From assembly GCA_019695295.1 (NCBI GenBank), contig JAIBAH010000017.1:1-52354 (forward strand): DNA of 52,354 nucleotides, in the 5' to 3' direction. A program made the translations under genes and the position numbers. The notes below the pieces were generated by a model. It was not told where the DNA came from. It ran no database searches and saw only the letters and a program-made list of their open reading frames with translations. Origin of the DNA: Bacteroidia bacterium (GTDB lineage: Bacteria; Bacteroidota; Bacteroidia; J057). Shown one piece after another: positions 1 through 29,226 of this stretch (within the stretch, counting starts at the first letter, position 1; the number at the start of each line of letters is the position of its first letter).

Positions 1-318
1 AAAGGATGAACCGTCAGGTTTGTGGTGATGATGCTGTCACAACCCCACATATTGGTAAGGGTATCCAGATATATACCGGATACATTGTAGGTATTTCCTC
101 CTATACTGATACTTTCTCCCTGACAAATAGAGACGTTCCGGGAAAAATAATTAACCGGATTTACCGTAAGAATAGTGGTGACAGTACTGTCAAATCCTGC
201 GGTACTCGTAAGCGAATCCACGTAAGTTCCCGATACGGTATAGGCACTGTTCCCAACCCTGAAGGTATCTCCCTGACAGATAGTCGTCTGCTGATTGATA
301 TCGAAACAGGGGTTAAGT
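1..318 (-). repeat. Tandem 51-residue (153 bp) repeats in the giant protease
   Basis: Two successive units share the pattern ICQG-(D/E)-x-(F/I)-x-x-G-x-x-x-Y-x-V-S-G-x-Y-x-D-(S/T)-L-T. The ICQG codons begin at 281 and 128 on the minus strand, exactly 153 bases (51 codons) apart. The second unit runs into the left edge, so the copy number is unknown. Such repeats usually form stalks in Bacteroidota surface proteins. Confidence 0.8.
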
Positions 319-3300
319 TGTATTCTGATTGAGTCTTCTGCACTGCACCCGTCAGAATTCGTAACCCTGAGATGATATACATAAGCGGTATTCGTTATAT
401 TGAGTGGAATTACCGCATCAGAAACAGGAGAGTGAATATCCGGGGTTACACTTGCGGGAATCCATTCATAATAGTCGTTGCCGATAGGAATAGTAAAATC
501 CGTAAGGTTAACATTTACGATTCCGGATGAACCCGCAGGAACACAAAAGGCAGTATCGGGCCGCATGGAAGGAACAATCGGAAAAGGAGCAATGGAAATA
601 GTGACAGAATCAGAAGTATTACAGCCCGTTGAGTCGGTTGCCGTTACGATATAGGTGGTGGAAACAGAGGGCGTTGCTACCGGGTCCGGAATATTGGGGT
701 TGTTCAGTCCGGTAGCCGGTGTCCATGAATAATTTACATTGCTTACTCCCGCTACGTTTGCATGCAAAGGTACGCTCTGATTTGCACAGATGATGGTGTC
801 ATTCTCTGCAATCTGAACGTTTTTCACTTCCACATGTAATGTATCCATATTGGCACAACTCGGGCAATTGTAAGTAATCACCTTATAGGTTGTGGAGACT
901 GAGGGAGAAGCTACAGGGTTCGGGCAATCATTACAACTCAGACCGGTAGAAGGAATCCATAAATACCGGGTCGCGATAGAGGGTCCGGAGGTTTGGCCGG
1001 GATTATCATATCCTGCTGCCAGTAACTGTACCGAATCCCCTTTACAAATTGCGATATTTTGCGAATTATTCTGAGGAATCTCAGCGTGAGTATAAATGGG
1101 TTCGAAAGTAAGTTCCAGTAACGGGCGGAAATTACCCACAGGATTATCACTGGAAGCCATATAAATCCTCCGGTAAGTCTGTTCGACCTGAAGTTCATGA
1201 CGGAATCCAAAGTTTCCGGTATTAATCTGTTGCTGAACGAGTCCGGTTACATTCAGGTTGGGGATACCGTTGCTTCCGGTGACCTGAGGGATTGCAACGG
1301 CTCCTGCGGCAATTACTGCAGGCTGATTATTCCAGGTAATCCCATATTCATCCCAGTTGGAAGCGGCATTGCTCAGCCAGGATTCATTCTGGCCGGATTG
1401 CAGATTAGCCCCCACTGCGGGGTCGTATGTCAGAGTAAGCCTTCCGTCCAGCAGATTGGCCGTATTACAAATATCTTCCAGATCAAATTCCAAAAATGTC
1501 CTCAGGGTTCCCGGATTACCATTCCATGTCCAGGTCATTGTATAAAGATATATATCAGCAGCACTATTGGTATTTGTGCTTGCATCCAGAGAATACACAC
1601 AAGCGTCTTTCCCCTTTTGAGGGCCGGGTTGAAGGGTATGTTTACATTCGTTCAGGCCGGTAATCGTAATCTGACGCGAAAAAGTATCCGTAGCGCAGGC
1701 ACTGATTGCGTAAAGCGTTACAGTGTAATTTCCGGGAAGAGCATAAATATGAACCGCATTCATCATTGTATCCGTTGAGCCATCTCCGAAATCCCAGGAA
1801 TAAAAAGCTGCGCCCAGTGAGTTATTGATAAACGCAGCAGTCAAAACATTGGAAACTACGTCAAAATCAGCTACAGGTACGCCGCATGCACTACAGATAG
1901 AATCCGGAATAACCGGAGTATAACTGTTTTCAGTTGATGCATATACTACGGGAGTGTAGTTTTGAATCAGAGTAAGGCCCGCAATGGTAACCGAAGGCGA
2001 CAGCGTCGTGACCCCTAATGTAGCATCCGTCGCATGACAGTCCCAGTATCCGGTGGAATCCGATTTTACGATATATACATCGTCCAGCCCTGCTCCAAAA
2101 CTCTGAGTGGAAGCAGTAGCTACAAAACCGCAGTCTCCGGTAGCATTCATATTAATTACTTCCCCGTCATTGAGGATTCCCCCCACCGATTTTGCCCATA
2201 ATAAGTCCCCATCCTCATCAATCCTGAAAACAAGCATCTGATTCTGAAAGGAGTCTTCTCTGCTTACTCCCGCAATGGCAAAAGAACCATCACACAAAGG
2301 CACTACGCTATACGCAACGTCCTGCATACTTCTGCCGTACTTTTTAGCCCACTGAAGTGCGCCGTTACTGTCCGTTTTTATGACAAACATATCCGTTACG
2401 GTGCTCCCGAAATTCTCAGTGCTCCCTACTGCAAGGTAACCATTATCCTGAGTAATACAAACATCATACCCATAATCATTCGCTGTACCCCCATAATTTC
2501 TTGACCATATTACCCCTCCGGAAGGATTGGTTTTGGTAAGCGATAAATCATACAGGCCGGCGGTTGCACCACTGCTCCTGCTGTATCCGGCGGTAATATG
2601 TCCGTTCCCGGGCGTTATTTGGGAGTGAAAAGCATATTCATAATTATTGACCTGATAAATATTGAGCCAGACAACATTGCCGTTGGTTCCATCGAGCTCC
2701 GCTACAGCCTGCCCCCCACTGTTAAAATTCACAGCATGAGCGGCTGTACCCGTTACCAGCAGGTTCCCGGTGTTTAGCTCTTTTATATCGTACCAGTTTC
2801 CAAAGATAGCCCCACCGGCGGAGATGTATTCGTAGTGTTGCTCCCACTGAAACACCCCGTTCAGGTCTGTTTTTACAATATAGGTTCTTCCGGCCTGACC
2901 GATTGACCTTGAGCCTACAGCGACGTATCCGTTACTGACTTCTTCTACGCTGATGAACAATCCTCTGTCGGTATCTCCATAGGTTTTGAACCACTGAATT
3001 GTGCCGGTATTATCCAGTTTTGCCATAAAAGCATCATAATCTCCGGCACCATAGCTGAACGTTCTGCCTACTACAATATACCCGCAATCAGTAGTTTGCT
3101 TTATAGAATAAGGAGTATCATGATTATTCCCTCCGAAAATCTGCTGAAAATTAGGAGTATTGACACAACTTGTGGCAATAATCACATCGGCATTCCCCGA
3201 AATCACACCACTGCACTGAGCACTCTGCATACTAACGAGCGTATAGTTTGTAGTTATAAGAGGAGAAACCGGTATCGTATAGGAAAAACCGGGGATACCG

Positions 3301-5045
3301 TTGACAGGGTAGTTCGTTGTTCCGTCGGTATAGACAAAAGAAAAAGGAGGCGTTCCGGTAAAATTAAACTGAAGGAAAGCGGTATTTCCCGGATTAATTG
3401 TGCCCCCTCCACTGATAGTTGCCGTTGGTTGGGCAACAGTAATATAATTAGTTTGCACTAAGGTATCGCTTCCGAGTGTATTGGTTACGATGAGGGATAC
3501 GGTATAGGTACCATTGGTACTGTAGGTTACTACCGGATTCTGAAGGGAAGAGGTAGCGGGAGTTCCGCCCGGAAATGACCAACTCCAGGTAGTAGGTCCG
3601 GCATAGCTGATATCTGTAAACTGTACGGCAGTTCCCTGACACACATTCACAGAGGAGGCTACAAACTGAGCCACGGGCGGGCCACTCATACAGAGTAAAG
3701 CCTGATAGGCATTAATCCTGCCGGTTCCAAGCTGACCGGTAAAAGTGGGATTTACTCCATAAATATTGTCAGTGGTCGTTTTTAAACAGTTTTCCACAAA
3801 ATCTGCATCTTTAGACAGATTGTAACTTCTCATTAATCCGCACAGGCCTGCTACTAACGGGCAAGCCATAGAGGTACCGCTCAGGTTACCGTAAGAAGAG
3901 GTGCTGCCGGCAAGTGTACTGTAAATATTCACTCCCGGAGCAGTGACATCAATCGTAGATCCGTAGTTGGAAAATGAGGCTTTGGCGTCATTATTATCAG
4001 AAGCCGCTACACTGATGACGTGATTATAGGAAGCCGGGTACATGGGAGCGCTGGTATTGCTGTTGCCTGCTGCGGCTACACACACAATGTCATTGGCATA
4101 GGCGAGGTCAAAAATACTCTGATTGGTAGCCGAAAATACGGAACCTCCCCAGGACAAGCTGATTACGTCTGCATCCGCTGCAATAGCATAAAGAACTCCT
4201 GCATAGGGATTGGTAAGTGACGGTCCCGGCGTAGCATCCGCAAGGGTTTTGACAGGAATGATATGAATATTGAAGCCAATAGAAGAAATTCCTGTACTGT
4301 TATCCGTAGCAGCGGCTACAATCCCTGCACAATGTGTCCCGTGTGTAAATACGCTGTTGGTAGTAGAAGCTGCCGGAGGCTCAGGATTATTGTCATTGTC
4401 TGCAACGTCCCAGCCATTTACATCGTCAATATACCCATTGCCTTCATCATCTACCCCATTTCCGGGTATTTCCAGCAGGTTTGTATGAATATTGGGTTGT
4501 AAATCCTGATGTGAAGATAAAATTGCATCATCTACAACCGCTACTTTTACCTTATTTGAACCCTGATAGATATCCCACGCGGCAGAGGCGTTAATTTTTG
4601 CCAGATTCCACTGAAGCGAATAGTCAGGGTCGTTGGGTGTGTAATACACTTCATTGACAGGGATAAATTCTGCATAATTGACATTGGGTGTACCGGATAA
4701 TTCAGCGATAAATAAATCCAGCGATTCCGGTTTATTAAAATGTATGATATAGGTTCTTTTTAGTTTTTCCAGAACAGGCCCGGACTTTTTACTTAAACGG
4801 GCAGGATTAAGCCGTAAAAACGGGTTCTCAATTTCGGTTACTTCATATTTTTCAAAAACCGCTCCCAGTGTGCCCATGTCAGCGTAACTCCAGCCCTCGG
4901 GTCCTTTTTTTCCTAAAGGCAGATTTTCACTGAATGTAGGGCTCAACTGAAGATATAACTTATCCGGCTCTATATTTTTCTGACCATAAACGAATGTCAG
5001 AGAGAGGAGCAGAGTGGCTATAATTATACTTAATTTATTGTACAT
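1..5045 (-). CDS. Giant secreted subtilisin-like (S8) protease with PKD, propeller-like and DNRLRE modules; C-terminus outside window
   Basis: Reading from ATG 5045 the frame stays open for about 1680 codons to the left edge, so the gene is partial. It starts with a signal peptide (MYNKLSIIIATLLLSLTFVYG). The S8 domain (about residues 150-435) has the full triad: D172 in VAVVDDAI, H235 in THGTHCAG and S392 in SGTSMACP. It is followed by a PKD domain (about 452-535), an Ig-like stretch, repeated beta-rich units of the 'GYIVVG...W.K.YG' kind that look like a propeller (about 630-1010), a second PKD (about 1050-1128, WDFGDGS) and a DNRLRE-like domain (about 1131-1315). Ig-like and tandem 51-residue repeats then run to the edge. 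By analogy such proteins are T9SS cargo that degrade or bind extracellular polymers. The sorting domain would lie beyond the window, so T9SS export is inferred. The gene is divergent from mscS. Confidence 0.93.
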   Translation of the reverse strand, partial: MYNKLSIIIATLLLSLTFVYGQKNIEPDKLYLQLSPTFSENLPLGKKGPEGWSYADMGTLGAVFEKYEVTEIENPFLRLNPARLSKKSGPVLEKLKRTYIIHFNKPESLDLFIAELSGTPNVNYAEFIPVNEVYYTPNDPDYSLQWNLAKINASAAWDIYQGSNKVKVAVVDDAILSSHQDLQPNIHTNLLEIPGNGVDDEGNGYIDDVNGWDVADNDNNPEPPAASTTNSVFTHGTHCAGIVAAATDNSTGISSIGFNIHIIPVKTLADATPGPSLTNPYAGVLYAIAADADVISLSWGGSVFSATNQSIFDLAYANDIVCVAAAGNSNTSAPMYPASYNHVISVAASDNNDAKASFSNYGSTIDVTAPGVNIYSTLAGSTSSYGNLSGTSMACPLVAGLCGLMRSYNLSKDADFVENCLKTTTDNIYGVNPTFTGQLGTGRINAYQALLCMSGPPVAQFVASSVNVCQGTAVQFTDISYAGPTTWSWSFPGGTPATSSLQNPVVTYSTNGTYTVSLIVTNTLGSDTLVQTNYITVAQPTATISGGGTINPGNTAFLQFNFTGTPPFSFVYTDGTTNYPVNGIPGFSYTIPVSPLITTNYTLVSMQSAQCSGVISGNADVIIATSCVNTPNFQQIFGGNNHDTPYSIKQTTDCGYIVVGRTFSYGAGDYDAFMAKLDNTGTIQWFKTYGDTDRGLFISVEEVSNGYVAVGSRSIGQAGRTYIVKTDLNGVFQWEQHYEYISAGGAIFGNWYDIKELNTGNLLVTGTAAHAVNFNSGGQAVAELDGTNGNVVWLNIYQVNNYEYAFHSQITPGNGHITAGYSRSSGATAGLYDLSLTKTNPSGGVIWSRNYGGTANDYGYDVCITQDNGYLAVGSTENFGSTVTDMFVIKTDSNGALQWAKKYGRSMQDVAYSVVPLCDGSFAIAGVSREDSFQNQMLVFRIDEDGDLLWAKSVGGILNDGEVINMNATGDCGFVATASTQSFGAGLDDVYIVKSDSTGYWDCHATDATLGVTTLSPSVTIAGLTLIQNYTPVVYASTENSYTPVIPDSICSACGVPVADFDVVSNVLTAAFINNSLGAAFYSWDFGDGSTDTMMNAVHIYALPGNYTVTLYAISACATDTFSRQITITGLNECKHTLQPGPQKGKDACVYSLDASTNTNSAADIYLYTMTWTWNGNPGTLRTFLEFDLEDICNTANLLDGRLTLTYDPAVGANLQSGQNESWLSNAASNWDEYGITWNNQPAVIAAGAVAIPQVTGSNGIPNLNVTGLVQQQINTGNFGFRHELQVEQTYRRIYMASSDNPVGNFRPLLELTFEPIYTHAEIPQNNSQNIAICKGDSVQLLAAGYDNPGQTSGPSIATRYLWIPSTGLSCNDCPNPVASPSVSTTYKVITYNCPSCANMDTLHVEVKNVQIAENDTIICANQSVPLHANVAGVSNVNYSWTPATGLNNPNIPDPVATPSVSTTYIVTATDSTGCNTSDSVTISIAPFPIVPSMRPDTAFCVPAGSSGIVNVNLTDFTIPIGNDYYEWIPASVTPDIHSPVSDAVIPLNITNTAYVYHLRVTNSDGCSAEDSIRIQLNPCFDINQQTTICQGDTFRVGNSAYTVSGTYVDSLTSTAGFDSTVTTILTVNPVNYFSRNVSICQGESISIGGNTYNVSGIYLDTLTNMWGCDSIITTNLTVHP

Positions 5046-6493: not shown

Positions 6494-9400
6494 ATGCAGG
6501 AGTACCTTCGTAATATTCTGTTTGTAGTTTTTGGACTGCTTACCGGAACCGTATCCGGACAGGTATCCCGTCTCTATACAACTGAAGATGGTATGTCTGC
6601 CAACTGGGTTCATTTTGTTTCAGAAGATAAATTAGGTTTTTTATGGGTAGGTACTACAGGAGGATTGAATCGTTTTGACGGAAAAAACTTCGAGGTTTAT
6701 TCGGAAGATGCCGAAAATCCTGAACACCGGCTGAAAAACGGAGAGGTTTACTTTGGCCAAGGGGATAATGATGGCTATTTTTGGGTAGGAACTTTGACAC
6801 ATCTTGAAATTATTGATATCAATACGGGAAAAATCAGTTTTTCCATTAGTTTCAAAGACCTTTTTAATTCCCGGTTTGGAAGTGATAAATTGGCAGGGGA
6901 AGTCTTTTTTTATATTAATCCTGCGAATCGTTATTTTTTAACCTTTAATGGATTTTTATTTGAACTGAAAAGAGAAGGAGAATTACTTACCTATGATTTA
7001 ATCAGCGATTATATCTTCAAATCCAAATTAAAGTTTGCAGAGGCGAAAGATGGAGGTATCATCATTTATTCTGATCGTTATTGTATCAGGCTTGTCCCTG
7101 AGGGTAAAGAATGGAAAAAAGAAGAACATATTGTATATGACGATAACCCCTCAGAATATCTGCATAGAATAGTATTAATGATATACGGGGTGAATTCAGA
7201 TAATCTGTTTACCCGAAGGGATGATTTTGGGCGTTCAGAACCTTTTCGGTTTTCTGCTGAAATTTCTCCCTTTTTTTTCTTTCGAAAAGATAAAAATAAC
7301 AGAATATGGTTTTACAACCAACAGAATCTCCATCTGCTGGATATTAATAAAGGATTTGTCTATGATTATTCTGACCTGACTACTGACCAGATTGCAGGAA
7401 GCCTGATTTATTCATTACATTCTTCAAGCAAAGACGTTATCTGGTGCGGATCATTCACAGGGTTATTGAAAATCTCTAATCCTTTCCCTGTTTTTGAAAA
7501 GGTATTTGACCGAAAAAACTATGAAAACTCGATGAAAATTATCAGTTTAAGAGGGATAGCCTTTGATACTACGGGCAACGTATATTTACCTGCCGCAAAT
7601 CAAATCTTCAGGTTTAATCGTTTCCGGCAGGAAATAGACTCCATTCAACTCTATAATCCTTCAAAATTATGGGTATCAGGTCTTTTTCACATATATATAG
7701 ATGAAGAACAAAAAATATGGATATGCGGGAATAACGAGTATATGTTCCAGATTCAGGTTACGGGAAAAACGTTTCAAATCGTTAAGGATCAGTATTATAA
7801 TATAGGGGCAGGGCATTTCCTCCCAATCGGAAACGGGAAATTCTGGACAGCGGGGCAAAACTTTGGTCTTTTGGACACGAAAACGCATCTCTTTAAACCC
7901 CATCCCCTCACAGATAGTATAGCGAAATCATTACCTGCATCCGCTATTAGCTTTATCTACAAGGCTTCAGATGGAAGTATTTGGCTGGGTGGCATAGATA
8001 TGGTATATCATATTCCGGATCCTGATTGCTTTTCTATGGAAGGAATAAGAAAATATTCTCAGCAATCCCAGCCAGAATACAGGATTGTCAGTAACCGTAT
8101 GATTTCAGAAATCAGGGAGGATTCAAAACATAATATATGGATAGGTACCAAAGGGCAGGGAGTTTACAGAATTAATTCACAAGGGAAAGTGGATTTGCAT
8201 ATTGGAAAAAAAGAAGGATTAAGCAACAATATGATTGCGGGCATTCTTGAATCAGAAAATGGAAATTTATGGATTTCTACCTTTAACGGGCTTAATGAAT
8301 ACAATCCCAATACCGGTAAGTTTCGGATATACTTCAAAAGTGATGGCATTACCCATAATGAGTTTAATATTTACTCAGCGGCAAAAGACAGCAGCGGCAG
8401 AATGTTTTTCGGCGGTGTAAACGGGCTTACTTTTTTTCACCCCAATGACTTTACTGATATCGAAGAAAAGAATGAATCATTCCATCTGGTTTTTACAGCG
8501 ATAACCTGTTATGCCGAAGCTCAAAAAAAAACCATTTCTTTGCTGAAAAACCAATCCAGTTCACAGACGATTTATCTGAGCCCTTATGACAGACTTTTGA
8601 ATCTGCAGTTTGCCCTTTTGAATTATGTCAATTCAGAAGCCAATCAGTTTGCCTACAAAATCGGAGGAATCTCCGACGAATGGATACTTCTGGGCAATAA
8701 GTCTGAAATTCAACTGCCGTATTTATCCGAGGGCAAGTATTATATATACATACGCGCAAAAATAGCCAACGGCGACTGGAATAAACAGGAACTCAAACTG
8801 GAGGTGAACGTAAAAGCCGTTTATTACAGGACATGGTGGTTTTTTCTGCTGCTTGCGGGCGCATTGGCCGGAATAATCATTGCACTCTACCGGTATCAGG
8901 TTCTGCTTCTCCAAAAAAGACAACAGGTCAGGACTGATATTGCCGCCGACCTACACGATGAGGTAGGCTCATTATTGACACGACTTTCCATGCAGGCCGA
9001 AATGCTACAGTTTCTCCCGGTTGAAAAAGTTAGCCTTAAACTTACCGAATTAGCCCGGACAAGTAAACTGGCTATATCCTATATGAGAGACATTATATGG
9101 TCTGTGGATGCAAAGAATGACAGTATAAGAAATCTCATTTCCAGATTAGAAGAGCAGATGGAGGCAGATTTGACTCCCTTAAATATTGATTATAAGCTGG
9201 ATATTCAATGTAATAGCCTTCAGGCAAAAATCCCCCCTGATTTAAGGCAAAACTTTTTCCTTATTTTCAAAGAGGCAATTCACAATATTGTGAAACATTC
9301 TCAGACTCATTCAGTGTTTGTAAAACTGCTTCATAATGAGGATGAACTATGTCTGATAATCGAGGAGAAGCATGAGTTCCTGAATCCTTCAGAAGAAAAC

Positions 9401-9595
9401 AGAAAAGACAAAAAACAGACTTCCGGAAATGGCCTTAATTACATGAAAATGAGGGCTTCCCGTATCAAGGCGGAACTGACTATAGATAAAAATACATGGA
9501 CAATCATTTTAAAGAAAAAATTCAGAAGATTATACATTCTGAAAAAGTACCTTGCATTGAAAAAATTAATAAAGAGCAATCCGTTTTGGAAATAA
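6494..9595 (+). CDS. Sensor histidine kinase with periplasmic Reg_prop propeller and Y_Y_Y domain; degenerate ATP-binding G1 box
   Basis: This 1033-aa protein has a signal-like N-terminus and then repeated Reg_prop motifs such as LGFLWVGTTGGLNRFD, HNIWIGTKGQGVYRI and GNLWISTFNGLNEY (clearest at about 27-70 and 535-660). A Y_Y_Y-like sandwich (about 705-775) and one membrane helix (about 777-800) follow. The cytoplasmic part has a HisKA_3 motif, DLHDEVGSLLTRLS (phospho-acceptor H821), and a NarX/LytS-like ATPase with N-box EAIHNIVKH (N931) and GNGLNYM. Where this family has DDGKGF, the protein reads EEKHEF, so the G1 box is lost and ATP binding may be weak. It lacks the usual AraC-type receiver fusion; the separate regulator at 9668 is the obvious partner. 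Propeller kinases usually sense periplasmic glycans; the ligand here is unknown. Confidence 0.9.
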   Translation: MQEYLRNILFVVFGLLTGTVSGQVSRLYTTEDGMSANWVHFVSEDKLGFLWVGTTGGLNRFDGKNFEVYSEDAENPEHRLKNGEVYFGQGDNDGYFWVGTLTHLEIIDINTGKISFSISFKDLFNSRFGSDKLAGEVFFYINPANRYFLTFNGFLFELKREGELLTYDLISDYIFKSKLKFAEAKDGGIIIYSDRYCIRLVPEGKEWKKEEHIVYDDNPSEYLHRIVLMIYGVNSDNLFTRRDDFGRSEPFRFSAEISPFFFFRKDKNNRIWFYNQQNLHLLDINKGFVYDYSDLTTDQIAGSLIYSLHSSSKDVIWCGSFTGLLKISNPFPVFEKVFDRKNYENSMKIISLRGIAFDTTGNVYLPAANQIFRFNRFRQEIDSIQLYNPSKLWVSGLFHIYIDEEQKIWICGNNEYMFQIQVTGKTFQIVKDQYYNIGAGHFLPIGNGKFWTAGQNFGLLDTKTHLFKPHPLTDSIAKSLPASAISFIYKASDGSIWLGGIDMVYHIPDPDCFSMEGIRKYSQQSQPEYRIVSNRMISEIREDSKHNIWIGTKGQGVYRINSQGKVDLHIGKKEGLSNNMIAGILESENGNLWISTFNGLNEYNPNTGKFRIYFKSDGITHNEFNIYSAAKDSSGRMFFGGVNGLTFFHPNDFTDIEEKNESFHLVFTAITCYAEAQKKTISLLKNQSSSQTIYLSPYDRLLNLQFALLNYVNSEANQFAYKIGGISDEWILLGNKSEIQLPYLSEGKYYIYIRAKIANGDWNKQELKLEVNVKAVYYRTWWFFLLLAGALAGIIIALYRYQVLLLQKRQQVRTDIAADLHDEVGSLLTRLSMQAEMLQFLPVEKVSLKLTELARTSKLAISYMRDIIWSVDAKNDSIRNLISRLEEQMEADLTPLNIDYKLDIQCNSLQAKIPPDLRQNFFLIFKEAIHNIVKHSQTHSVFVKLLHNEDELCLIIEEKHEFLNPSEENRKDKKQTSGNGLNYMKMRASRIKAELTIDKNTWTIILKKKFRRLYILKKYLALKKLIKSNPFWK

Positions 9596-9667: not shown

Positions 9668-10339
9668 ATGATTAAAATTGTTCTTATAGAAGACGATAAC
9701 GGTATAAGAGAATGCCTTGCCGATTTCCTGAATATGCAGCATGATACGAAATATCAAACACGGTGTATCGGTAGTTTTAGCTGTCTGGAGGATTTTTTGA
9801 AAAATAAAGATGAATATTCAGAAGCAAATATCGTATTACTCGATATTAATCTTCCCGGAATGACAGGGCTTACAGGTATTAAATACATCAAAGCCGCGCT
9901 TCCGGATACAGATATTATCATGCTTACAATTCACAATAACAGCGATGTCGTTTTTCAGGCTCTGTGTGCAGGTGCTACAGGATATCTGCTTAAAGGAGCC
10001 TCTCTTCCTTTTATTCTTGACGCTATTATCCAGCAGTATGAAGGAGGGGCTGCTATGTCTCCTTCTATTGCCCGCATGGTGATATCCACATTTGGTCCCA
10101 AAATACAAAACAAAAATAACACATTTACCGGGCATTCCGCCCTTTCCACTCTTACACCCCGTGAACTTCAGGTAGTTCAGGCACTGGCTGACGGTCTTAG
10201 CTATAAATTAGTGGCAGACAGGCTTCAGATTTCAACGAAAACTGTTCCTGTATTTATTAAAAATATCTACACAAAACTTCAGGTGAACAGTAAATCAGAA
10301 GTTGTTTCTATCTATCTTAGAAATCAGCTGAAATTATGA
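9668..10339 (+). CDS. NarL/FixJ-type response regulator (REC-LuxR HTH)
   Basis: The 223-aa protein has an N-terminal receiver with acidic residues E8/D9/D10, phospho-acceptor D59 in VLLDINLPGMTG, and the conserved Lys of GYLLKGAS. The C-terminal LuxR-type HTH (about 161-218) shows LTPRELQVVQALADG and NIYTKLQVNSKSEVV. The recognition-helix stretch reads STKTVPVFIKN where most relatives have TVKxHI/TVRSHI. The Pro and the loss of the usual His/Arg suggest altered DNA specificity. The gene sits 72 bases after the propeller kinase on the same strand, so the two form a two-component pair. Confidence 0.93.
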   Translation: MIKIVLIEDDNGIRECLADFLNMQHDTKYQTRCIGSFSCLEDFLKNKDEYSEANIVLLDINLPGMTGLTGIKYIKAALPDTDIIMLTIHNNSDVVFQALCAGATGYLLKGASLPFILDAIIQQYEGGAAMSPSIARMVISTFGPKIQNKNNTFTGHSALSTLTPRELQVVQALADGLSYKLVADRLQISTKTVPVFIKNIYTKLQVNSKSEVVSIYLRNQLKL

Positions 10340-10513
10340 TTACTTTTTTTTCAAAATTAAGCTAAATTACTTAATATGAATAATTTATATTTATATAAAT
10401 TCAGATTACTATAAATATAGTATTGTTGCTGATAATAATTTCCTATTATTTTGTACTCAATTCTTTTTATATTAATGACTTGGATTTAATTTAATAAAAT
10501 ATCTGTGAAGGAA

Positions 10514-11536
10514 ATGAAGCATAATATTTATGTTGTAATCTGGCTGTTCAGCTTTTTAGCATTTGGGTTTCCCGTTTTAGCTCAAACTGTTAATAGTGAC
10601 ACTTGTTACAGGTCGGTATTAAAAGGAGAAAATTTGTTTGATATAGCAAAGGAATACTCCGTTACTGTTAACAGTATCTGTAAACTGAACAATATTGAGG
10701 TAGAAGATACCCGAATTTACCCCGGACAACAGCTAAAAATTGTTGTTGAAAATAACGTAACTCAGGTACCTGATTCTATCACCGGAATTGCTGAAGCCGA
10801 GGCTCCGCTTCGCAGGCTTTTTTTAGTAACAATTGGTGTAGATTCTATTCAGAAAAAGAGAGGAAGTCATCTGAAATATACCGTCAAAGGGGCTTTGGAT
10901 GTTCAAACTTTCTTTGAACTTCAGGAAGGGAGTATTTATAGTGATGTGATTACATTATCTATCACCGGGTTTCCTACCAAGCGGGAAATTCTGGAGCAAA
11001 TAAAAAATTTCGCTAAGAAAATTGAAAGTGAAAATGATGTATTTGTATTGTATATTGGTTCTCACGCTCGTAATGATTCGGTAAGAAATGAATTCTGGAT
11101 GATGCCTTACGATTTTGATGATTCAGATACATTAACCTATATGCGAAGCGCAATCTCCGCTGCCGAAATGCTCGACGCAATCCGTACCCCTTCTCATCCT
11201 GACGGAACCAAAATACTCCTGCTTGATATCTGTAACTCGGAAGGGTTTATGTTAAGTGTCGCTAAAAGCGCAATTCAGGAAATGGAGGTCTGCATAATGG
11301 CGGCTTGTGGGAAAGATGAAATTGCTTACGAAACCGATAAATGGGATAATAGCGCTTTTGTATATGCTCTTCTCGAGACTCAGAGTCCGGAATTTCGTCA
11401 AATGGCCCAAAAATGGAGTGTAAAGCAACTTTTTGAGTTTATCAGGGTAAAGGTTGAAGCGATTACTGAGGGCGACCAAAAACCCAAACTGATTTTAAAT
11501 ACCCCCTTTGACGATATCTTTATTCAAAGTAATTAA
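10514..11536 (+). CDS. Exported LysM domain-caspase-like (C14) cysteine peptidase
   Basis: The frame opens at GTG 10505; I prefer ATG 10514, which gives 340 aa and a standard signal peptide ending FPVLAQ. A LysM domain follows (about 32-78: KGENLFDIAKEYSV, NNIEVEDTRIYPGQQL). The rest is a caspase/metacaspase fold: RRLFLVTIGVDS on strand 1, a catalytic His in VLYIGSHARND (H184) where relatives have YAGHG, and a catalytic Cys in LLLDICNSEG (C240) where relatives have LDACHSG. Both dyad residues are present although the motifs are unusual. LysM binds peptidoglycan-type glycans, so the protease would be held at the periplasmic or surface wall. It follows the two-component pair in the same direction; regulation by that pair is inference. 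Confidence 0.8.
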   Translation: MKHNIYVVIWLFSFLAFGFPVLAQTVNSDTCYRSVLKGENLFDIAKEYSVTVNSICKLNNIEVEDTRIYPGQQLKIVVENNVTQVPDSITGIAEAEAPLRRLFLVTIGVDSIQKKRGSHLKYTVKGALDVQTFFELQEGSIYSDVITLSITGFPTKREILEQIKNFAKKIESENDVFVLYIGSHARNDSVRNEFWMMPYDFDDSDTLTYMRSAISAAEMLDAIRTPSHPDGTKILLLDICNSEGFMLSVAKSAIQEMEVCIMAACGKDEIAYETDKWDNSAFVYALLETQSPEFRQMAQKWSVKQLFEFIRVKVEAITEGDQKPKLILNTPFDDIFIQSN

Positions 11537-11636: not shown

Positions 11637-11676
11637 AAAAAAAACGGAATCAGTTTTATTTGATTCCGTTTTTTTT
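11637..11676. terminator. Bidirectional terminator between the LysM-caspase and desaturase genes
   Basis: AACGGAATCA (11643-11652) pairs with TGATTCCGTT (11661-11670) across an 8-base loop. An A run precedes it and a T run follows, so it works for both converging genes. Confidence 0.9.
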
Positions 11677-12614: not shown

Positions 12615-14093
12615 TCACATCAGCCCATCCATTAAAATCCGGTTTCCTTCTTTACAAAAAGTATGCATACCTCTTAACGGATAAGGAGGAGATAAAGTTC
12701 GGACTAAACGCTGTTCAAATGAAAACTCACTCAGATGTGTAATTTCAAATATCTCAATCCGGTATCCGTAATACGGACTTCCGCATTGCGCTACCCGGTA
12801 AAGCCGGCCTTCTTCGTGGAATATTTTCCCTCCGTTGAGGCTTTGGGTTATATCGGAAAGTACAGGATTGCCGGCGTGCGCCTTCCATTCCCCTTCCAGT
12901 AAATCTTCCGTATAAAAAACAGATAATTCATCCAGTACCGCATGATTTTCAGGAAATTCAGGCCTGTGAATGTCTTTCACACTTGTCATCATCCACCATT
13001 TATCCCTCTGACTGAAGACCACTGTATCTCCGGCTTCCGTATTTTCCATCAGATGTTTTTTCAGTTTCCAGGTATAGGGAAAATCTTCCGCTTCATACAA
13101 TGAAATTGTACGGTTTTCCTGAGTTTCCGGAATCATATATATCCTGTTTTCATACTCAAATACATAGGGAAAAGAAAGATGAAACGGTGCCTGCAGTACA
13201 CATACCGGATCCGAAAAGGTATCATCCTCCAGCCACTCCGTAACCGAAATCCGGCCTTTGGTACTTCCGTCAGGGATTTCTTCAAAAAAAACAAATGTCT
13301 TTTGATTATAGGTAAAAATAAAAGGGTCAGCGTTCAGGGATTTATCCGGAGAGGCAAGCAACGTCAGTTTCTCAGGGTCAAAATCACAGAAAGATAATTC
13401 TGTGATTTGATAGAGCAGTTGCCAGGTCGGCCTGTGTTTTCTTCGGTCAAAGAATTGACGTAGCCTTCGTCTGAACTGTAAAACCAATTGATTGAGCATT
13501 GTTTTTGTGCTCAGGCTGTGAAATTCAGGGGTAACGGGCAGAGAATGTTCCGCACCTGAAGGGTTTTCCCCAAGAACCCGGTGAATAAGCGCAATGCTTT
13601 TCCCGGTTATTACATGCAGATTCAGGGAGGCAGAAAGGTTCCCTGCGTAGCTTTTGGCTTCCCGGAGCAGAAAAGTATCTCCGTTTTTCTGCTGATAAAA
13701 GACGCTTGTTTTTATATAAGGGATTTCCGGATGAAAAAAAGCCGGAAAAGTTTCCTTTTCATAGTAAAAAACATCATGAATCAGATAAATCCCCTCGTAA
13801 TCCGGCGGAGGAGGAGTAAAGTCCAGCCAGATAGAGCAAACCGTCTCAGCCTCCTTTTTTAAAAGAAAACCAGGGGGAATTTCCGTTTTTTGCATTAAAT
13901 CTCCGGGTATTTTGCGGATTAGTTTTTCCGTTTCTGCCCATTTCAGAAAAGCAGCTACGCCTCCGGGCATGATACGCGCCGGGATGTATTCCACTTCAAC
14001 CTCAAAACTGCCGGATACAGCCAAAGACTCCATTACTTTCACCTGCCACAAAGGCACTGGAGCACGATTAAGCCAGAGGATGATTTTCTTCAT
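12615..14093 (-). CDS. Glucosamine inositolphosphorylceramide transferase (GINT1)-like protein with degenerate formyltransferase-like N-terminus
   Basis: The 492-aa protein has no signal peptide. Residues from about 225 to the end look like the five-bladed, GH43-like propeller of the GINT1 C-terminal family: ADPFIFTYNQKTFVFFEE, LSFPYVFEYENRIYMIPET, AGDTVVF, NGGKIFHEEGRLYRVAQ and YGYRIEIFEI. Plant GINT1 transfers GlcN(Ac) to inositolphosphorylceramide; bacterial relatives are uncharacterised and are often joined to a formyltransferase-like N-domain. Residues 1-200 (IYLIHDVFYYE and what follows) could be a decayed form of that domain. An envelope glycan or lipid role is inference. Its stop lies about 190 bases before the desaturase start, so co-transcription is possible. 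Confidence 0.65.
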   Translation of the reverse strand: MKKIILWLNRAPVPLWQVKVMESLAVSGSFEVEVEYIPARIMPGGVAAFLKWAETEKLIRKIPGDLMQKTEIPPGFLLKKEAETVCSIWLDFTPPPPDYEGIYLIHDVFYYEKETFPAFFHPEIPYIKTSVFYQQKNGDTFLLREAKSYAGNLSASLNLHVITGKSIALIHRVLGENPSGAEHSLPVTPEFHSLSTKTMLNQLVLQFRRRLRQFFDRRKHRPTWQLLYQITELSFCDFDPEKLTLLASPDKSLNADPFIFTYNQKTFVFFEEIPDGSTKGRISVTEWLEDDTFSDPVCVLQAPFHLSFPYVFEYENRIYMIPETQENRTISLYEAEDFPYTWKLKKHLMENTEAGDTVVFSQRDKWWMMTSVKDIHRPEFPENHAVLDELSVFYTEDLLEGEWKAHAGNPVLSDITQSLNGGKIFHEEGRLYRVAQCGSPYYGYRIEIFEITHLSEFSFEQRLVRTLSPPYPLRGMHTFCKEGNRILMDGLM

Positions 14094-18590: not shown

Positions 18591-21500
18591 ATGGATAATT
18601 TTTTTTCAAACGAAAGCGGTTTGCAAATTCCTTTGGATTCTGTTCTGAACAGTATTTCCGATAGTATTTGGGTGATTGACAGGGAATTTAGGTTTGTAGC
18701 CGCGAATGCAATATTTATCGAAAAATTTAAACAGGCTTTTGGGGTAGATATTATTACAGGCAATTATATTGGAGAGGGCATGGCCCCGAAAGCCCTTGAT
18801 TTCTGGAAACCCTATTATGAAAGAGGGTTTGCAGGAGAAAAAATTACGTTTGAATACGATTTTGAGAGTAATGAAGAAATTTTATACTATGAAGTTTCTG
18901 TTTCTCCCTACTATCAGTACGAAGGGATTGTGAGTGCTGTGATTATGGTGAGCAGAGATATCACTCAGCGGAAAAAATCGGAAAAAAATCTGATAGAAAT
19001 GCAGTCTGCTTTCTCTAAGGCACTTGGTTTTTCCAAAATGGGAAACTGGGAGTTGAATCTGAATACTTTCCAGATAGTAATGTATAAACACAAACAACAA
19101 ATTCTGGAGTTTGAGGAGATATCAGATAATCCTGTCAGGGTAAATGTAGCAGAGTATATAGCCCGTTTTGTAGAGCCCGGCGATGTACCTTTGGCTTCCG
19201 AACACTTGTCGGTATTAATCAGGGAAAAAGACAATCCGGGTTATACCATGAAACTGACTTATGCCGGTATTACGGAAAAGAAAAATGTCCGGTATTTCCA
19301 TCTCGAATGTCAGGTGAGAGAGAATCAAATCGTTTATGGCTTTACTCAGGATATTACGGAAAGAAGACTTGCCGAGATAAAATCAGAAGAATCGCGGCAG
19401 TTGTACGAGCACCTTGTGGAAACCTTGCCGGATATGATTATTTTGCACAGAAATGGGATTATTATTTTTGCAAATGAAACACTCTATAAAAGAACCGGTT
19501 TCACCAAAGAGGAAGTAATAGGGAAAAGTGTGCTAGCCTTTGACAGACCCGAGAATAAAAACAAAACAATGAGAATTCTCAAAGACCGAAAAATGGGCAT
19601 TAAAATTCCGGACTATGAGTTAATACTCCCAGTGAAAACAGGAGAAATTCTAAACCTGAGGGTCAAGTCCTCAGAAGTAATGGTACAGCAGTTGCCCACT
19701 ACCCTGATTGTATTTGAGGATATTACCGAAATCAAAAAATCCCATAAAATTCTCGAAGAAAATAATGCCCTCCTGACCTCTGTGATGAACAGCCCTAACC
19801 ATACCATTATTTTTTCACTGGATAAAAATTATTGCTACACCAGTTTCAATGAAAACCACCGCAAAACCATGAATGCGATATGGGGCTGTGAAATTGAAGT
19901 CGGAAAAAATATGCTGGAATACATCAGGGATGATCAAGACAAGGAAAAAGCCAGAAAGAACTTTGACCGGGTATTTAACGGAGAGAGTTTTCAGATTACG
20001 GAACAATATGGCGAAGCTCCAAACCGATTTTATTATGACAATGCCTATAATCCCATCAAGGATGAACAGGGAAATATAACAGGACTTACCGTTTTTTTAT
20101 TTGATGTAACCTCCCTGAAAAGAGCAGAAGAAGCACTGTTGAAAAGTCAGAGGGAAGTAAATATTATCTTTGAGCACTCCTTTGACGCAGTATTTCTGAT
20201 AGAGGAAGCTACCTTAAGTATCGTTCGTTGTAATCAAAAAGCGGTTTCTCTCTTCGAGGCAGAGTCAAAAGAGAAAATGATTGAATATGTAACGTTTGAA
20301 GATTTTCTCCCGGAAAACGTTACAATCTCAGAGGTAAAAGAATGGCTGAACACCGGGGTTATCTGGCAAAGAGAAGTGGAATATACTTCTTCCTCAGGCA
20401 GACATTTTTGGGGAAGCCTGAACCTGAAAAAAATATCAGGTTTGTCAGAAATGGGCTTTTTTATCATGAAAATTATTGATATAGATGAAAGGAAAAAAGC
20501 GGAAAGAAATCTCGTCGAAAAGCAAAAGCAACTGGAAGCAATCATTGAAAACACCTATGACAATATCTGGCTTACCGATACTGAATGCAGGCTTCTCAAT
20601 GCCAATTCCGCTTTTAAAACCTGGGTTAAGCAGAAATATAATATAGAACTTAGAGAGGGAATGTCCATGATAGATAGTCTCTTTCAGGATTATCCTAAAG
20701 AAAGAAGGGTCTGGAAAAAATGGTATGATTCGGCTTTGGAAGGCAAGGTGATTGACGTGGAAAGTGAAGAAGAGGATACAAACGGAAGGAAAATAACCTG
20801 GGGGCATTTAATCTCTCCCGTCAAGGAAGGAAATGAAATTATTGGTATGGCCATTTTGTCCCGGAATATTACCGAGAAAAAAAGAAAACTGGAGGAAATA
20901 AGAAGAAGTGAAGAATTACTGAAATTTGCCATCACTGCCAATAAAGAAGGTGTTTGGGATTGGAGTATCGATACCGGAAAACTGTCCGGAAATCAGGCAT
21001 GGTACGATTTGCTCGGGTATAAACCCTGTGAAATCACAGAAACTACTGCGGATATCAGTAAGTTAATAGACAATGAGGACAAACCAATGGTTGCTGCTCA
21101 GGTCTGGGATACAAGAAATGGCGTTACGGACAGTTTTGAGTGTGAGTATCGTTTGATAAACAAAAAAGGAATGCGTATATGGGTGAGAGACAGAGGAATC
21201 GTAGTAGAAAAAAACAGTAAGGGAGAAGCAGTAAGGATGGTAGGAACGCTGGAAAATATAACCGAACGTAAACTCATAGAGATTGAACTGATTGATCAGC
21301 AAAAGTTTATCCGAAGGGTAATCAATGCTATTCCCAATCTTATTTTTGTAAAGGATACCGAAGGAAGATTTGTACTGGTCAACAAAGCTTTTGCCGAATA
21401 TTATAACATGGATGTGCAAAGTTTCAACGGCAAGCACGACTTAGACTTACTGGGAGCAAGGAATCAGTATCTGAAGGACTACCTGAATTCAGATTATCAG

Positions 21501-22382
21501 GTTTTGACTACCGGAAAACCGACATTTCTCCCTGAAACCAGATCCATTGACACCAAAACCGGAGAGCTTGTTTATTATCAGACGGTAAAAGTACTACTGA
21601 CTCATGCTGATGGAAAAAAACAAATACTGGGAGTAGCGACCAATATTACGGAAAGAAAAAAAGCGGAGGCTGAAAAAGTCAGATTGGTAGAGTCCCTTAT
21701 GCAGAATGTACAGGACATGGAACAGTTTACCTATATGGTGTCGCATAATTTCCGCTCTCATGTAGTCCGTATTCTGGGCCTCGTCAGCTTGCTCGATCGT
21801 GAAAATAAAGATAATCCGTTCAATGATTATATTTTTAATACGGTAACAGAGGAAGCCAACCGGCTCGATACAATTATCGGAGACCTGAATGTAATTCTGA
21901 CAATCAGAAGCAGCTATGATGAAAAGAAAGAAGAACTTTTTCTCAGAGATATTGCCGAATCAGCTTTACTCGCCCTCAAAGGAGATTTGGAGAAGTGTGG
22001 AGGAACCATAACCCTGAATATTCCTGAGGACCTGAAAGTATATGCAATCAAAACCTACAACTACAGCATTATTCTCAATCTTCTGTCCAATGCAATCAAA
22101 TACAGAAGTTCCGATAGACAGCTGAAAGTATTAGTAGAAGCCTTTCACACCGAAAACGGAGAGTATCTGTGCCTGAAAGTATCGGACAACGGAATAGGAA
22201 TTGACCTTGAAAAAAGCAAAGATAAATTATTCGGGCTTTACCGCCGGTTTCATCTGCATGTAGAGGGCAAAGGAATAGGACTGCACATTACCAAAACGCA
22301 GGTAGAAAGAATGGGCGGAAGAATCGAGGTGGAAAGTACAGTAAATGAAGGCACTACTTTTAAGGTGTACTTCCCGTTGTAA
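18591..22382 (+). CDS. Orphan soluble sensor histidine kinase with eight PAS domains
   Basis: The 1263-aa protein has no signal peptide or membrane segment. I count eight PAS/PAC units starting at about residues 14, 138, 272, 393, 520, 645, 775 and 905, each ending in D/N-I-T-x-R/K-K-type PAC motifs (DITQRKKSEK, DITERRLAEI, NITERKKAEA). The kinase core has phospho-acceptor H1052 in MVSHNFRSH, an N box LLSNAIKYRS, G1 SDNGIGID and G2 GKGIGLHI. The H box reads SHN rather than SHE/SHD. No response regulator is adjacent, so it is an orphan. Its core closely resembles the kinase at 34918-36489. PAS domains bind small ligands, haem or flavin; none can be assigned here. Confidence 0.93.
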   Translation: MDNFFSNESGLQIPLDSVLNSISDSIWVIDREFRFVAANAIFIEKFKQAFGVDIITGNYIGEGMAPKALDFWKPYYERGFAGEKITFEYDFESNEEILYYEVSVSPYYQYEGIVSAVIMVSRDITQRKKSEKNLIEMQSAFSKALGFSKMGNWELNLNTFQIVMYKHKQQILEFEEISDNPVRVNVAEYIARFVEPGDVPLASEHLSVLIREKDNPGYTMKLTYAGITEKKNVRYFHLECQVRENQIVYGFTQDITERRLAEIKSEESRQLYEHLVETLPDMIILHRNGIIIFANETLYKRTGFTKEEVIGKSVLAFDRPENKNKTMRILKDRKMGIKIPDYELILPVKTGEILNLRVKSSEVMVQQLPTTLIVFEDITEIKKSHKILEENNALLTSVMNSPNHTIIFSLDKNYCYTSFNENHRKTMNAIWGCEIEVGKNMLEYIRDDQDKEKARKNFDRVFNGESFQITEQYGEAPNRFYYDNAYNPIKDEQGNITGLTVFLFDVTSLKRAEEALLKSQREVNIIFEHSFDAVFLIEEATLSIVRCNQKAVSLFEAESKEKMIEYVTFEDFLPENVTISEVKEWLNTGVIWQREVEYTSSSGRHFWGSLNLKKISGLSEMGFFIMKIIDIDERKKAERNLVEKQKQLEAIIENTYDNIWLTDTECRLLNANSAFKTWVKQKYNIELREGMSMIDSLFQDYPKERRVWKKWYDSALEGKVIDVESEEEDTNGRKITWGHLISPVKEGNEIIGMAILSRNITEKKRKLEEIRRSEELLKFAITANKEGVWDWSIDTGKLSGNQAWYDLLGYKPCEITETTADISKLIDNEDKPMVAAQVWDTRNGVTDSFECEYRLINKKGMRIWVRDRGIVVEKNSKGEAVRMVGTLENITERKLIEIELIDQQKFIRRVINAIPNLIFVKDTEGRFVLVNKAFAEYYNMDVQSFNGKHDLDLLGARNQYLKDYLNSDYQVLTTGKPTFLPETRSIDTKTGELVYYQTVKVLLTHADGKKQILGVATNITERKKAEAEKVRLVESLMQNVQDMEQFTYMVSHNFRSHVVRILGLVSLLDRENKDNPFNDYIFNTVTEEANRLDTIIGDLNVILTIRSSYDEKKEELFLRDIAESALLALKGDLEKCGGTITLNIPEDLKVYAIKTYNYSIILNLLSNAIKYRSSDRQLKVLVEAFHTENGEYLCLKVSDNGIGIDLEKSKDKLFGLYRRFHLHVEGKGIGLHITKTQVERMGGRIEVESTVNEGTTFKVYFPL

Positions 22383-25572: not shown

Positions 25573-28500
25573 CTACTTCAGCCATACAGATTGCTTACGG
25601 CTGAATCCGTTTCCGGTAAGCATGAGGTAATATATACCCGGAGTACAGTGACTCAGATTCAGAGAGATAATATTATCATTTGTAACAGGAATCTCTGCTA
25701 CTGTTTCTCCCAGCACATTTACCACTTTTGCACTATAATAAACCGGCTCCCCTATGAGGGTAATACTCAGGTTCCCTGTTGTAGGGTTGGGTGCAACTAC
25801 AAAATGGACTACTTTGTCCTGTGAAAGGAGAACTCGTTTAGTTTCTGAAAAAGTATTATGCCCGTCTATATCTGTTTGCCGGATTCTGTAGTAATTGGAG
25901 CCGTAATCCGGATGTAAATCGTATGCAGAATAAAATTGATTTTCATAACTGTTTCCGGTCCCCGGAACCTGCTCAAGTGCCATAAAGGAAATCCCGTCAA
26001 CCGATTTTTCTACGGTAAAATATTCGTTCAGGGATTCAGAGGCGGTAGCCCACTCCAGCTTTACGGTTTGATTTTCCATCAGGGTTGCCGAGAAATCAAG
26101 CCACTGAACCGGGAAAGAAACTCCGTTTCCGGTTTCTCCTGCTCCGCCGCCGGAAAAACTACCCACAGTAAATTCTCCGTAGTGATTATCTCCCAAAGGC
26201 ACAACGTCTGCATTGATTCCTATCAGGTCAGTGTAATTTGCTCCTGTATGACCGGATGCGGGGTTGGGGTTTATCCCTGAAGCAGAGGTGAATTTAAAAA
26301 ACTGAATATCACTATCCGTAACCAGTGCCGGGCAGTTGGCTTGCAGTGCAGTAAAATCCTGAGGGGTATAGTAAAATCTGACCCCTACCGGATTTACCGG
26401 CTGAACGGCAGGACTTACATCCCAGAAACGATTCATCACATACCATCCGGTAGGATAATTGGCGGCGTAGGGGGCAGTTGGGGCAGTAATCTGAGTGTAG
26501 TATGGACTCCCCCCAAATCCTAAGGTTACCTGAGCCGGCGTTATGGAGACGGTATTGTCTTTTTTCAGAGAAAGAAGCAACTGATTCTCAACTCCGGATT
26601 TATAGTAATACGTCCAGCCTTCCGCATCTGTCTCTTCCATATCGGCATTGATGACAGACTGCAAAGCCGTATTCACCGGTACACTACCCACAATTCGGCC
26701 AAAGTAGTTTTTAATCGCATCAAGACGGGAAGTATTCAGTGCTGCCAGAGAGTTTCCGCCGATAATTGCAAAGGCCAGTCTGTGTGTCCCTCCGGAAGGG
26801 ATATCGAAGCTACCCGCTCCCGTAAACTGCATAATATCGCTTGAGGAGGTAATTGATGCACTCGCAGGAGCAGGCGTATTACTGATAGCATTAAACTTTC
26901 CGTTGTCGGTAAAATCTACCGAACTATTGGAGTAAGCCCTTGATTTAAACGGGTCGTCCGTAAGCAGTGCTACGGCATAATAATCCGAGTAGCCTGACTG
27001 ATGCGCATAGGACATTTTTTTGGCGGCGTCATAATTACATAGATTCTGTGCGTATGCGGTGGGATCCAGGGGGTTACTGTATATATCCCAGTCAGTAAAA
27101 ATCCCGGCGTATAATCCGTTTCGGGCTACACCTGAGCTATTGGTGATAAGATATTCCACAATCAGATAGTCCTGATCAGCAACAGCATTGTAGTTGTAGA
27201 TATTTATATTGATGGTCAGTCCCAGCGGGGAAGGAGCGGCACCATCTGAAAAAGTTGCATTCGCTTCGAAGTCAGAATTAGCCGGTGCCGGATTGGCCAA
27301 TATACGGGAAATTGCGGCAAAATCATTGTCGCGTGAAGAGGAATTCACCCGGACATTATTGGCAATTGCAGCAGAGGAGTTACCAATGAGAAATCCTCCT
27401 TCGTATAAGGCAGAAATCAATCCATTGTATTGTAAGCCCATGCCTTTGTTATTAAATGGATAATCTCTGTATCCAAGCCCCCCGGTTCCGGTTACGGTAA
27501 TATCCATGAGGTTGTTGGTGACGTTGATAGCATTGGGGTTGGCCTCTATCATAATATATTCAAAATCAGTATATCCTGTAACCGGATCAGAATATGACAC
27601 TTTCAGATTAACCGCAAGGTCTGCAGGTGCGGCGGGAGATACAGAAAAAGAAAATATCTGAGACGAAGTCCCCAGCAATGCCAGCGCACCCGGATTTTGT
27701 ACTCCGGTAATCATCGAGATATACGGTGCACAGACCGCATCGGGTGCAATAGTAATTGTGAGGTTTCCTGCTGCGTCCAGCCAGTTAATAAAATCCAGAT
27801 TTAATTGTATCGTTTCTCCAGATTCAATCTCAGCGTCACCATCTCCGGATATTGTAGTGAACCCTTCGTTATTGATTCTCACCGAGGGCGTAAGCGACAC
27901 ATTGTTTACCGCATTGAACATATCCAGCCTTCCTTTACCGAGTTTATCAGCCATGATTACAGGATTAATCCCATAATTATCCACGGCAGTAACCCTTACC
28001 CTTTGTGCTGCCTGATAGGGAGTAAAGGAAGCCATTCCAAGAATGTCATGATATCTTCTGTAAGTGAGGGCAACTGCCCCTGTAACCACCGGTGCAGCAT
28101 TGGAAGTATAGCCGCCTTTATTGGGCGAATTGATATCCATAGTGTAGTTATAGCTGGAAAAAGTAGTATTGACTACCCCTGTGGCAGAGCAGGCACCGAC
28201 AGAGATACTCCGCCTGAAAGCAGCCGGAAAATACATTAAGTCGCTTTGCGAATTTCCTCCTGCAACGATTACCGCAGCATTTTTGTTGATAGTGGCATAG
28301 TTCACGACAGCCTCTCCGAATGCAGTGTAGTTAGGGCTTCCCCACGAGCAATTGATTACATGCATCCCATTATCAGCGGCATATACAATGCCTTCATACC
28401 CGTGGGTAATACTGGACTCATTGGGAGCCGCCTTCATGATTCTGAATCCACAATTATATCCAACACCGGCATAGAGTGTGCCATTATTCGTTACGTTCCC

Positions 28501-29226
28501 AAAGCGGGTAGAGACCAGATAACCGTGAGGATTGGTAACAGTGCCATTCAGTGTATTATCATTACCTGCAAAATCCCAGCCATATACATCATCAATGTAG
28601 CCGTTTGCATCGTCATCTATCCCGTTTCCGGCTATTTCTCCAGGATTGGCTACGAGGTTTCCATCCATATCAGCTACCCCGAATTTATAGCCCGTATCTA
28701 CAATTCCACACAGTACACTATGACTTCCCGTCACCAAATCCCAGGCATTATAGGCATTAATCAGGGTGAATGCGCCAATGTCCAGATTATTGGGGTTGGG
28801 GTCATTCGGGGTTAGAAAAGGCGTGTTGATATACCGGGGTTCTATAAAATCATAGACATCTTCTGTCCATAGTGCATTGATTGCATCCTCAACCGGAATA
28901 CCGGGGTCAAAGGATATAGAATAAATCGTACTGAGGTCTTCCATTTTTTCCCCGGATTTAGACCTTGCATTTTCCGGGACCTCGTGACCGGGAAACAGCT
29001 GATATATTTTCTGAATTTTCAGATGGGGGGAGGAAAGTAATACAGAAGGAAGCTGAATAGCATCGGTACTCAGTTTATTTCTGAACTGAGGTTTTACTTT
29101 CAGAATCATTTCTCCCTTTACATAATTGGCGGACGCCGGAATTTTAACATACTTTCCGGTTTGAGCAAAGGACAAGAGCGGAATTATCAGGGCAAGAAGC
29201 GATATAAATCGTAGAGATATAATCAT
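25573..29226 (-). CDS. Secreted S8 serine protease with T9SS type A sorting domain
   Basis: The 1217-aa protein has a signal peptide (ISLLALIIPLLSFAQ) and an S8 catalytic domain. D177 lies in CGIVDTGY and S375 in TSNAAPVVTGAVAL. The presumed catalytic H234 sits in PHGYLVST instead of the usual HGTHVAG. A calcium-type motif GNGIDDDANGYIDDV precedes it. The middle is Ig-like and beta-rich. The C-terminal 80 residues are a sorting domain (VAPNPTTGNLSITL, VVNVLGETVAEI, TPGIYYLMLTG, ending SVWLK), so T9SS export is well supported. All three triad residues are present, but the altered His loop makes activity less certain. Confidence 0.93.
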   Translation of the reverse strand: MIISLRFISLLALIIPLLSFAQTGKYVKIPASANYVKGEMILKVKPQFRNKLSTDAIQLPSVLLSSPHLKIQKIYQLFPGHEVPENARSKSGEKMEDLSTIYSISFDPGIPVEDAINALWTEDVYDFIEPRYINTPFLTPNDPNPNNLDIGAFTLINAYNAWDLVTGSHSVLCGIVDTGYKFGVADMDGNLVANPGEIAGNGIDDDANGYIDDVYGWDFAGNDNTLNGTVTNPHGYLVSTRFGNVTNNGTLYAGVGYNCGFRIMKAAPNESSITHGYEGIVYAADNGMHVINCSWGSPNYTAFGEAVVNYATINKNAAVIVAGGNSQSDLMYFPAAFRRSISVGACSATGVVNTTFSSYNYTMDINSPNKGGYTSNAAPVVTGAVALTYRRYHDILGMASFTPYQAAQRVRVTAVDNYGINPVIMADKLGKGRLDMFNAVNNVSLTPSVRINNEGFTTISGDGDAEIESGETIQLNLDFINWLDAAGNLTITIAPDAVCAPYISMITGVQNPGALALLGTSSQIFSFSVSPAAPADLAVNLKVSYSDPVTGYTDFEYIMIEANPNAINVTNNLMDITVTGTGGLGYRDYPFNNKGMGLQYNGLISALYEGGFLIGNSSAAIANNVRVNSSSRDNDFAAISRILANPAPANSDFEANATFSDGAAPSPLGLTININIYNYNAVADQDYLIVEYLITNSSGVARNGLYAGIFTDWDIYSNPLDPTAYAQNLCNYDAAKKMSYAHQSGYSDYYAVALLTDDPFKSRAYSNSSVDFTDNGKFNAISNTPAPASASITSSSDIMQFTGAGSFDIPSGGTHRLAFAIIGGNSLAALNTSRLDAIKNYFGRIVGSVPVNTALQSVINADMEETDAEGWTYYYKSGVENQLLLSLKKDNTVSITPAQVTLGFGGSPYYTQITAPTAPYAANYPTGWYVMNRFWDVSPAVQPVNPVGVRFYYTPQDFTALQANCPALVTDSDIQFFKFTSASGINPNPASGHTGANYTDLIGINADVVPLGDNHYGEFTVGSFSGGGAGETGNGVSFPVQWLDFSATLMENQTVKLEWATASESLNEYFTVEKSVDGISFMALEQVPGTGNSYENQFYSAYDLHPDYGSNYYRIRQTDIDGHNTFSETKRVLLSQDKVVHFVVAPNPTTGNLSITLIGEPVYYSAKVVNVLGETVAEIPVTNDNIISLNLSHCTPGIYYLMLTGNGFSRKQSVWLK

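Follow-up and report, generated by a model that had tools for sequence, protein, structure and literature searches.

The window, meaning the whole 52,354-nucleotide stretch of DNA analysed here, contains on its forward strand an intact open reading frame encoding a 340-residue protein, P0001, in which a signal-peptide-like segment is followed by a LysM domain, a flexible linker and a caspase-fold (Peptidase_C14) domain (Table 1). Its start codon is the ATG at 10514, with an alternative in-frame GTG at 10505. Genes for a sensor histidine kinase and a LuxR-type response regulator lie upstream on the same strand, and a convergent desaturase gene lies on the other side. The palindrome at the 3′ end, flanked by A and T runs and absent from the list produced by a terminator scan, reads as what is probably a bidirectional terminator shared by the P0001 and desaturase genes. 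Other genes in the window include one that seems to encode a large, subtilase-like protein for secretion and is cut by the start of the window (1–5043, − strand; named by reading only), a match to the N-terminal domain of glucosamine inositolphosphorylceramide transferase 1 (GINT1_N, E 5e-39; 12615–14093, − strand), here in a bacterium, and a histidine kinase of 1263 aa that contains several PAS domains (18591–22382, + strand).

Table 1 Features of the P0001 locus, in coordinates of the window.
Feature	Position	Strand	Basis
Sensor histidine kinase with Reg_prop, Y_Y_Y and HisKA_3 domains; at most a possible regulator	6494..9595	+	Pfam
LuxR-type response regulator (Response_reg, GerE), possible regulator only	9668..10339	+	Pfam
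P0001, signal peptide–LysM–Peptidase_C14 protein, 340 aa	10514..11536	+	Intact ORF; Pfam LysM and Peptidase_C14 above cut-off
Signal-peptide-like segment, residues 1–23, likely cleavage between VLA and QT	10514..10582	+	Hydropathy
LysM domain, residues 35–76	10616..10741	+	PF01476, E 6.1e-10; predicted model
Flexible linker, residues 77–97	10742..10804	+	pLDDT <50 at residues 82–92 (AlphaFold)
Caspase-fold (C14) domain, about residues 98–338	10805..11527	+	PF00656; VIA-align to AtMCA4
Gly126, at the S1-pocket Asp (TbMCA2 Asp95) position	10889..10891	+	Asp in 42/45
Catalytic His184 (YIGSHA)	11063..11065	+	Invariant 45/45
Asp238, S1-pocket residue corresponding to TbMCA2 Asp211	11225..11227	+	Invariant 45/45; role from PMC4357240 and PMC6426788
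Catalytic Cys240 (LLDICNSE)	11231..11233	+	Invariant 45/45; same column as AtMCA4 Cys139
Palindrome flanked by A and T runs	11637..11676		A8-CGGAATCA-GTTTTATT-TGATTCCG-T8, read from sequence

The hydrophobic N-terminus of P0001 (MKHNIYVVIWLFSFLAFGFPVLA, followed by QT) reaches a 15-residue Kyte–Doolittle maximum of 2.31, and hydropathy analysis found no second stretch of similar strength in the protein. The LysM domain matches its Pfam profile with 39.3 bits (cut-off 20.9) and adopts the β-α-α-β fold in the predicted model (E28–34, H41–47, H52–58, E73–79; pLDDT about 90). The Peptidase_C14 profile is matched with 43.7 bits (E 3.5e-11, cut-off 21.4) across residues 150–332, within the wider span given by structure. 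The match to the NCBIfam model for EACC1-associated caspases (NF047832) scored 40.0 bits, below its curated cut-off of 140 bits, and PADLOC returned only a weak caspase match.

An AlphaFold model of P0001 built on 45 relatives (mean pLDDT 86, >90 across most of both domains) replaced a poorer first model built on 5 sequences (pLDDT 70.7). Its C14 part aligns with Arabidopsis metacaspase-4 (AtMCA4, 6w8r) over 215 residues at 2.6 Å with a VIA-align Z of 22.3, and the Z values for MALT1 (22.3), caspases (about 21) and the bacterial GSU0716 (21.2) are so nearly equal that no single subfamily can be assigned. A sequence search of the PDB with P0001 alone retrieved LysM-type structures only, and metacaspases were reached through a profile of 45 C14 domains. 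In that profile, H184 corresponds to the His of the GHG motif and C240 shares its column with Cys139 of AtMCA4 (Ala in the C139A entry) and the Cys of Yca1; C240 directly follows strand 232–239 in the model, and neither dyad residue nor D238 varies in the alignment. The computed domain order, caspase fold and dyad agree with a preliminary description of this DNA, which had read a signal peptide, a LysM domain and a caspase-fold domain with an H184/C240 dyad into one protein and had proposed structure prediction as a check.

The surroundings of the dyad are divergent (GSHA and DICNSE, against the GHG and DACHSG consensus), and the GSHA motif had been taken to indicate a distinct subfamily. This holds for its last residue, as Ala after the catalytic His occurs in only three of the 45 domains, all from LysM-C14 proteins (P0001, P0002 and P0005), and the five LysM-C14 proteins found in this study form one side of a branch in the C14-domain tree with moderate support (86/80). 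It does not hold for the Ser before the His, which is found in 8 of the 45 domains, non-LysM ones among them. Judged from the alignment, the better subgroup mark, missed in the preliminary description, is the loss of an S1-pocket Asp. Asp95 of TbMCA2, retained even in pseudo-orthocaspases, belongs to a pair of acidic residues that matter for substrates with a basic P1 (PMC4357240, PMC6426788). At this position the only exceptions to Asp are P0001 (Gly) and the LysM-C14 proteins P0003 and P0004 (both Ser), while P0002 and P0005 retain it; the register around G126 is ungapped from L120 to G139. The same three proteins are the only ones with Gly two residues before the catalytic His (Ser156 in TbMCA2). 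P0001 thus has one (D238) of the two acidic S1 residues that characterise metacaspases and orthocaspases of basic P1 specificity. With the pocket Asp lost and the dyad kept, homology to TbMCA2 predicts a P1 preference other than Arg or Lys, although other pocket residues could serve P0001 in its place. The main interest of P0001 lies in this pairing of a changed pocket with an intact dyad.

The genome encoding P0001 contains three signal–LysM–C14 genes (P0001 and one each on contigs C199 and C139) and a sister species (G004) contains two, with no further LysM-C14 fusion among the other LysM proteins of the P0001 genome. All five proteins have a hydrophobic N-terminal stretch. The other four share the dyad with P0001 at only 22–24% identity, so a chance composition can be set aside. 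P0002 and P0005, which are 59% identical, are orthologues in conserved synteny, with a tyrosine-recombinase-like and an outer-membrane-like gene on their flanks (neighbours named by reading). P0001, P0003 and P0004 group strongly in the C14-domain tree (100/98), with P0003 and P0004 on long branches. Both P0003 (L017, G000:C139:33817-35004) and P0004 (L016, G004:C376) fall below Pfam C14 detection, yet keep the His, Asp and Cys, and annotation by Pfam only would overlook such divergent paralogues. No P0001 orthologue was found in two sister genomes, both drafts, and conservation in place was rejected, as the sister species (G004) has an unrelated 1072-aa protein beside the desaturase gene. A further C14 domain in the P0001 genome (L001, G000:C61) is part of a long protein whose open frame spans 1144 aa and whose N-terminal part is GTPase-like by reading; it is a cytoplasmic-type caspase relative.

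A profile search for LysM and C14 in one chain, suggested in the preliminary description, indicated that the fusion is rare. The profile was run against 395 class-level and 395 phylum-level genomes (overlapping, sampled sets) and P0005 against the class, scoring the best 5 candidates per genome; phyla beyond Bacteroidota were hardly covered. Outside the five proteins, no single match covered both domains among the best 5 candidates per genome in >700 other sampled genomes of the phylum; C14 matches started at profile position 65 at the least and LysM-only matches ended near 100. The limitation of LysM-C14 proteins to one genus is therefore an observation on the sampled genomes and not a proof. 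A genome-contig search with P0001 alone gave no relative, which the limited reach of the peptide-pattern method probably explains; queried with P0002 and P0005, it gave one C14-bearing match (sister-species record KLAP112) together with four short ones located at or close to the LysM region. Plasmid records yielded a single C14-only match, from Deinococcus.

Export of a C14 domain had been considered unusual, a view that the comparison does not bear out, exported C14 proteins being common: signal-peptide C14 proteins, among them propeller-C14 proteins, are encoded in the P0001 genome and elsewhere in its genus and family (for example L003 and P0006), and secreted or wall-binding metacaspases have been published. 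Among 671 prokaryotic metacaspases, 46 have a single N-terminal transmembrane helix, possibly a signal peptide, 11 have a peptidoglycan-binding domain and 4 an amidase domain (Asplund-Samuelsson et al., PMC3501461); the main text of that survey makes no mention of LysM. A secreted C14 protein with two YARHG domains (A5ECX2) has also been described (PMC3355149). What stands of the claim that an exported, wall-glycan-binding caspase-like protein is unusual is the rarity of the LysM-C14 fusion in the sample, as wall-binding metacaspases with other binding domains are known. P0001 is confirmed at the stated coordinates and its architecture is rare among the sampled genomes, but it is a variant of these already described exported wall-binding metacaspases. 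In both, a C14 domain is coupled to a module with a (putative) role in binding or acting on peptidoglycan, and at least some are exported; P0001 differs in that its binding module is an N-terminal LysM and in having no amidase. With bacterial metacaspases and orthocaspases in general (PF00656; GSU0716, PDB 3bij) it shares the fold, the dyad and an Asp two residues before the Cys, but it has a LysM ahead of C14, Gly at the Asp95 position and the divergent dyad motifs. The propeller-C14 proteins of the same family (L003, L008, L019, L022) are likewise predicted to be exported and have an SSH motif at the catalytic His, whereas their N-terminal repeats are not LysM and both the S1 Asp and a Gly following the His are retained. 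The periplasmic LysM-M23 proteins NlpD, ActS and DipM resemble P0001 in combining a signal peptide, a LysM and a C-terminal effector domain, which is M23 in place of the caspase fold.

Three proteins in the window, all on the − strand, have a type IX secretion system (T9SS) sorting tail (Por_Secre_tail; 25573–29226, 31480–32703 and 51086–52198), one of them with a subtilase domain. These tails make the host look like a Gram-negative member of the Bacteroidota, in which binding to the wall would be periplasmic and not at the cell surface. Neither P0001 nor any of its four LysM-C14 relatives showed such a tail, and a periplasmic location is accordingly more likely for them than one at the cell surface.

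From this evidence we infer, with somewhat better than even confidence, that P0001 is a peptidoglycan-anchored periplasmic C14 cysteine protease, exported by Sec, that cuts periplasmic or envelope proteins. After predicted Sec export, the single LysM would hold it on periplasmic peptidoglycan, where one such domain may bind only weakly; the flexible linker would let the caspase-fold domain act near its anchor, and this single-chain domain would cut its substrates through the His184/Cys240 dyad.

A non-proteolytic role is an unlikely alternative, in which the caspase-fold domain of a LysM-anchored P0001 would bind and control wall enzymes. NlpD and ActS, in which LysM is joined to degenerate M23 domains, activate amidases; the LysM of P0001 paralogues weakly resembles those of ActS and DipM-type proteins, and the departure of the dyad surroundings from consensus would fit such a regulator. 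A non-catalytic domain would, however, be expected to lose its catalytic residues, and the retention of H184, D238 and C240 in all five proteins despite 22–24% identity argues for selection on catalysis. As no orthologue of P0001 was found in the two sister draft genomes, this argument rests on its paralogues and relatives and is not direct for P0001 itself.

About equally improbable is that P0001 is an envelope-stress or lysis effector, induced by the adjacent Reg_prop kinase and LuxR regulator to dismantle the envelope or kill the cell. The two genes and that of P0001 lie on the same strand within 5.1 kb, and a role in cell death is often discussed for metacaspase proteases (PMC3501461). The regulator gene nevertheless ends 174 bp before the P0001 gene, and the pair adjoins none of the four related genes, so that a conserved kinase–regulator–protease operon was rejected; the kinase near the P0005 gene is separated from it by a convergent recombinase gene, with no regulator gene listed alongside. 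Since Reg_prop kinases are numerous in the bacterial family, the adjacency may be chance and control of P0001 by the pair is only possible. Least likely of all is a released weapon or nutrient-scavenging protease binding the walls of other bacteria, for which fratricide has been proposed in extracellular metacaspases (PMC3501461), but against which speak the missing T9SS tails, carried by other proteins of this genome, and the lack of any visible immunity gene adjacent to the P0001 gene.

Returning to an anchored periplasmic protease, a broader and decidedly tentative reading is that the genus has a family of caspase-like proteases anchored to peptidoglycan in the periplasm, of whose five proteins three have moved off the Arg/Lys specificity of metacaspases, and that the family acts at the envelope in processing or as death proteases. 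Extracytoplasmic roles of bacterial caspase relatives have scarcely been probed, and P0001, as a small, single-chain, putatively wall-anchored protein that keeps its dyad and has an altered specificity pocket, offers a tractable case in which to ask what such proteases cut and whether bacterial caspase-type cutting is confined to basic P1 residues.
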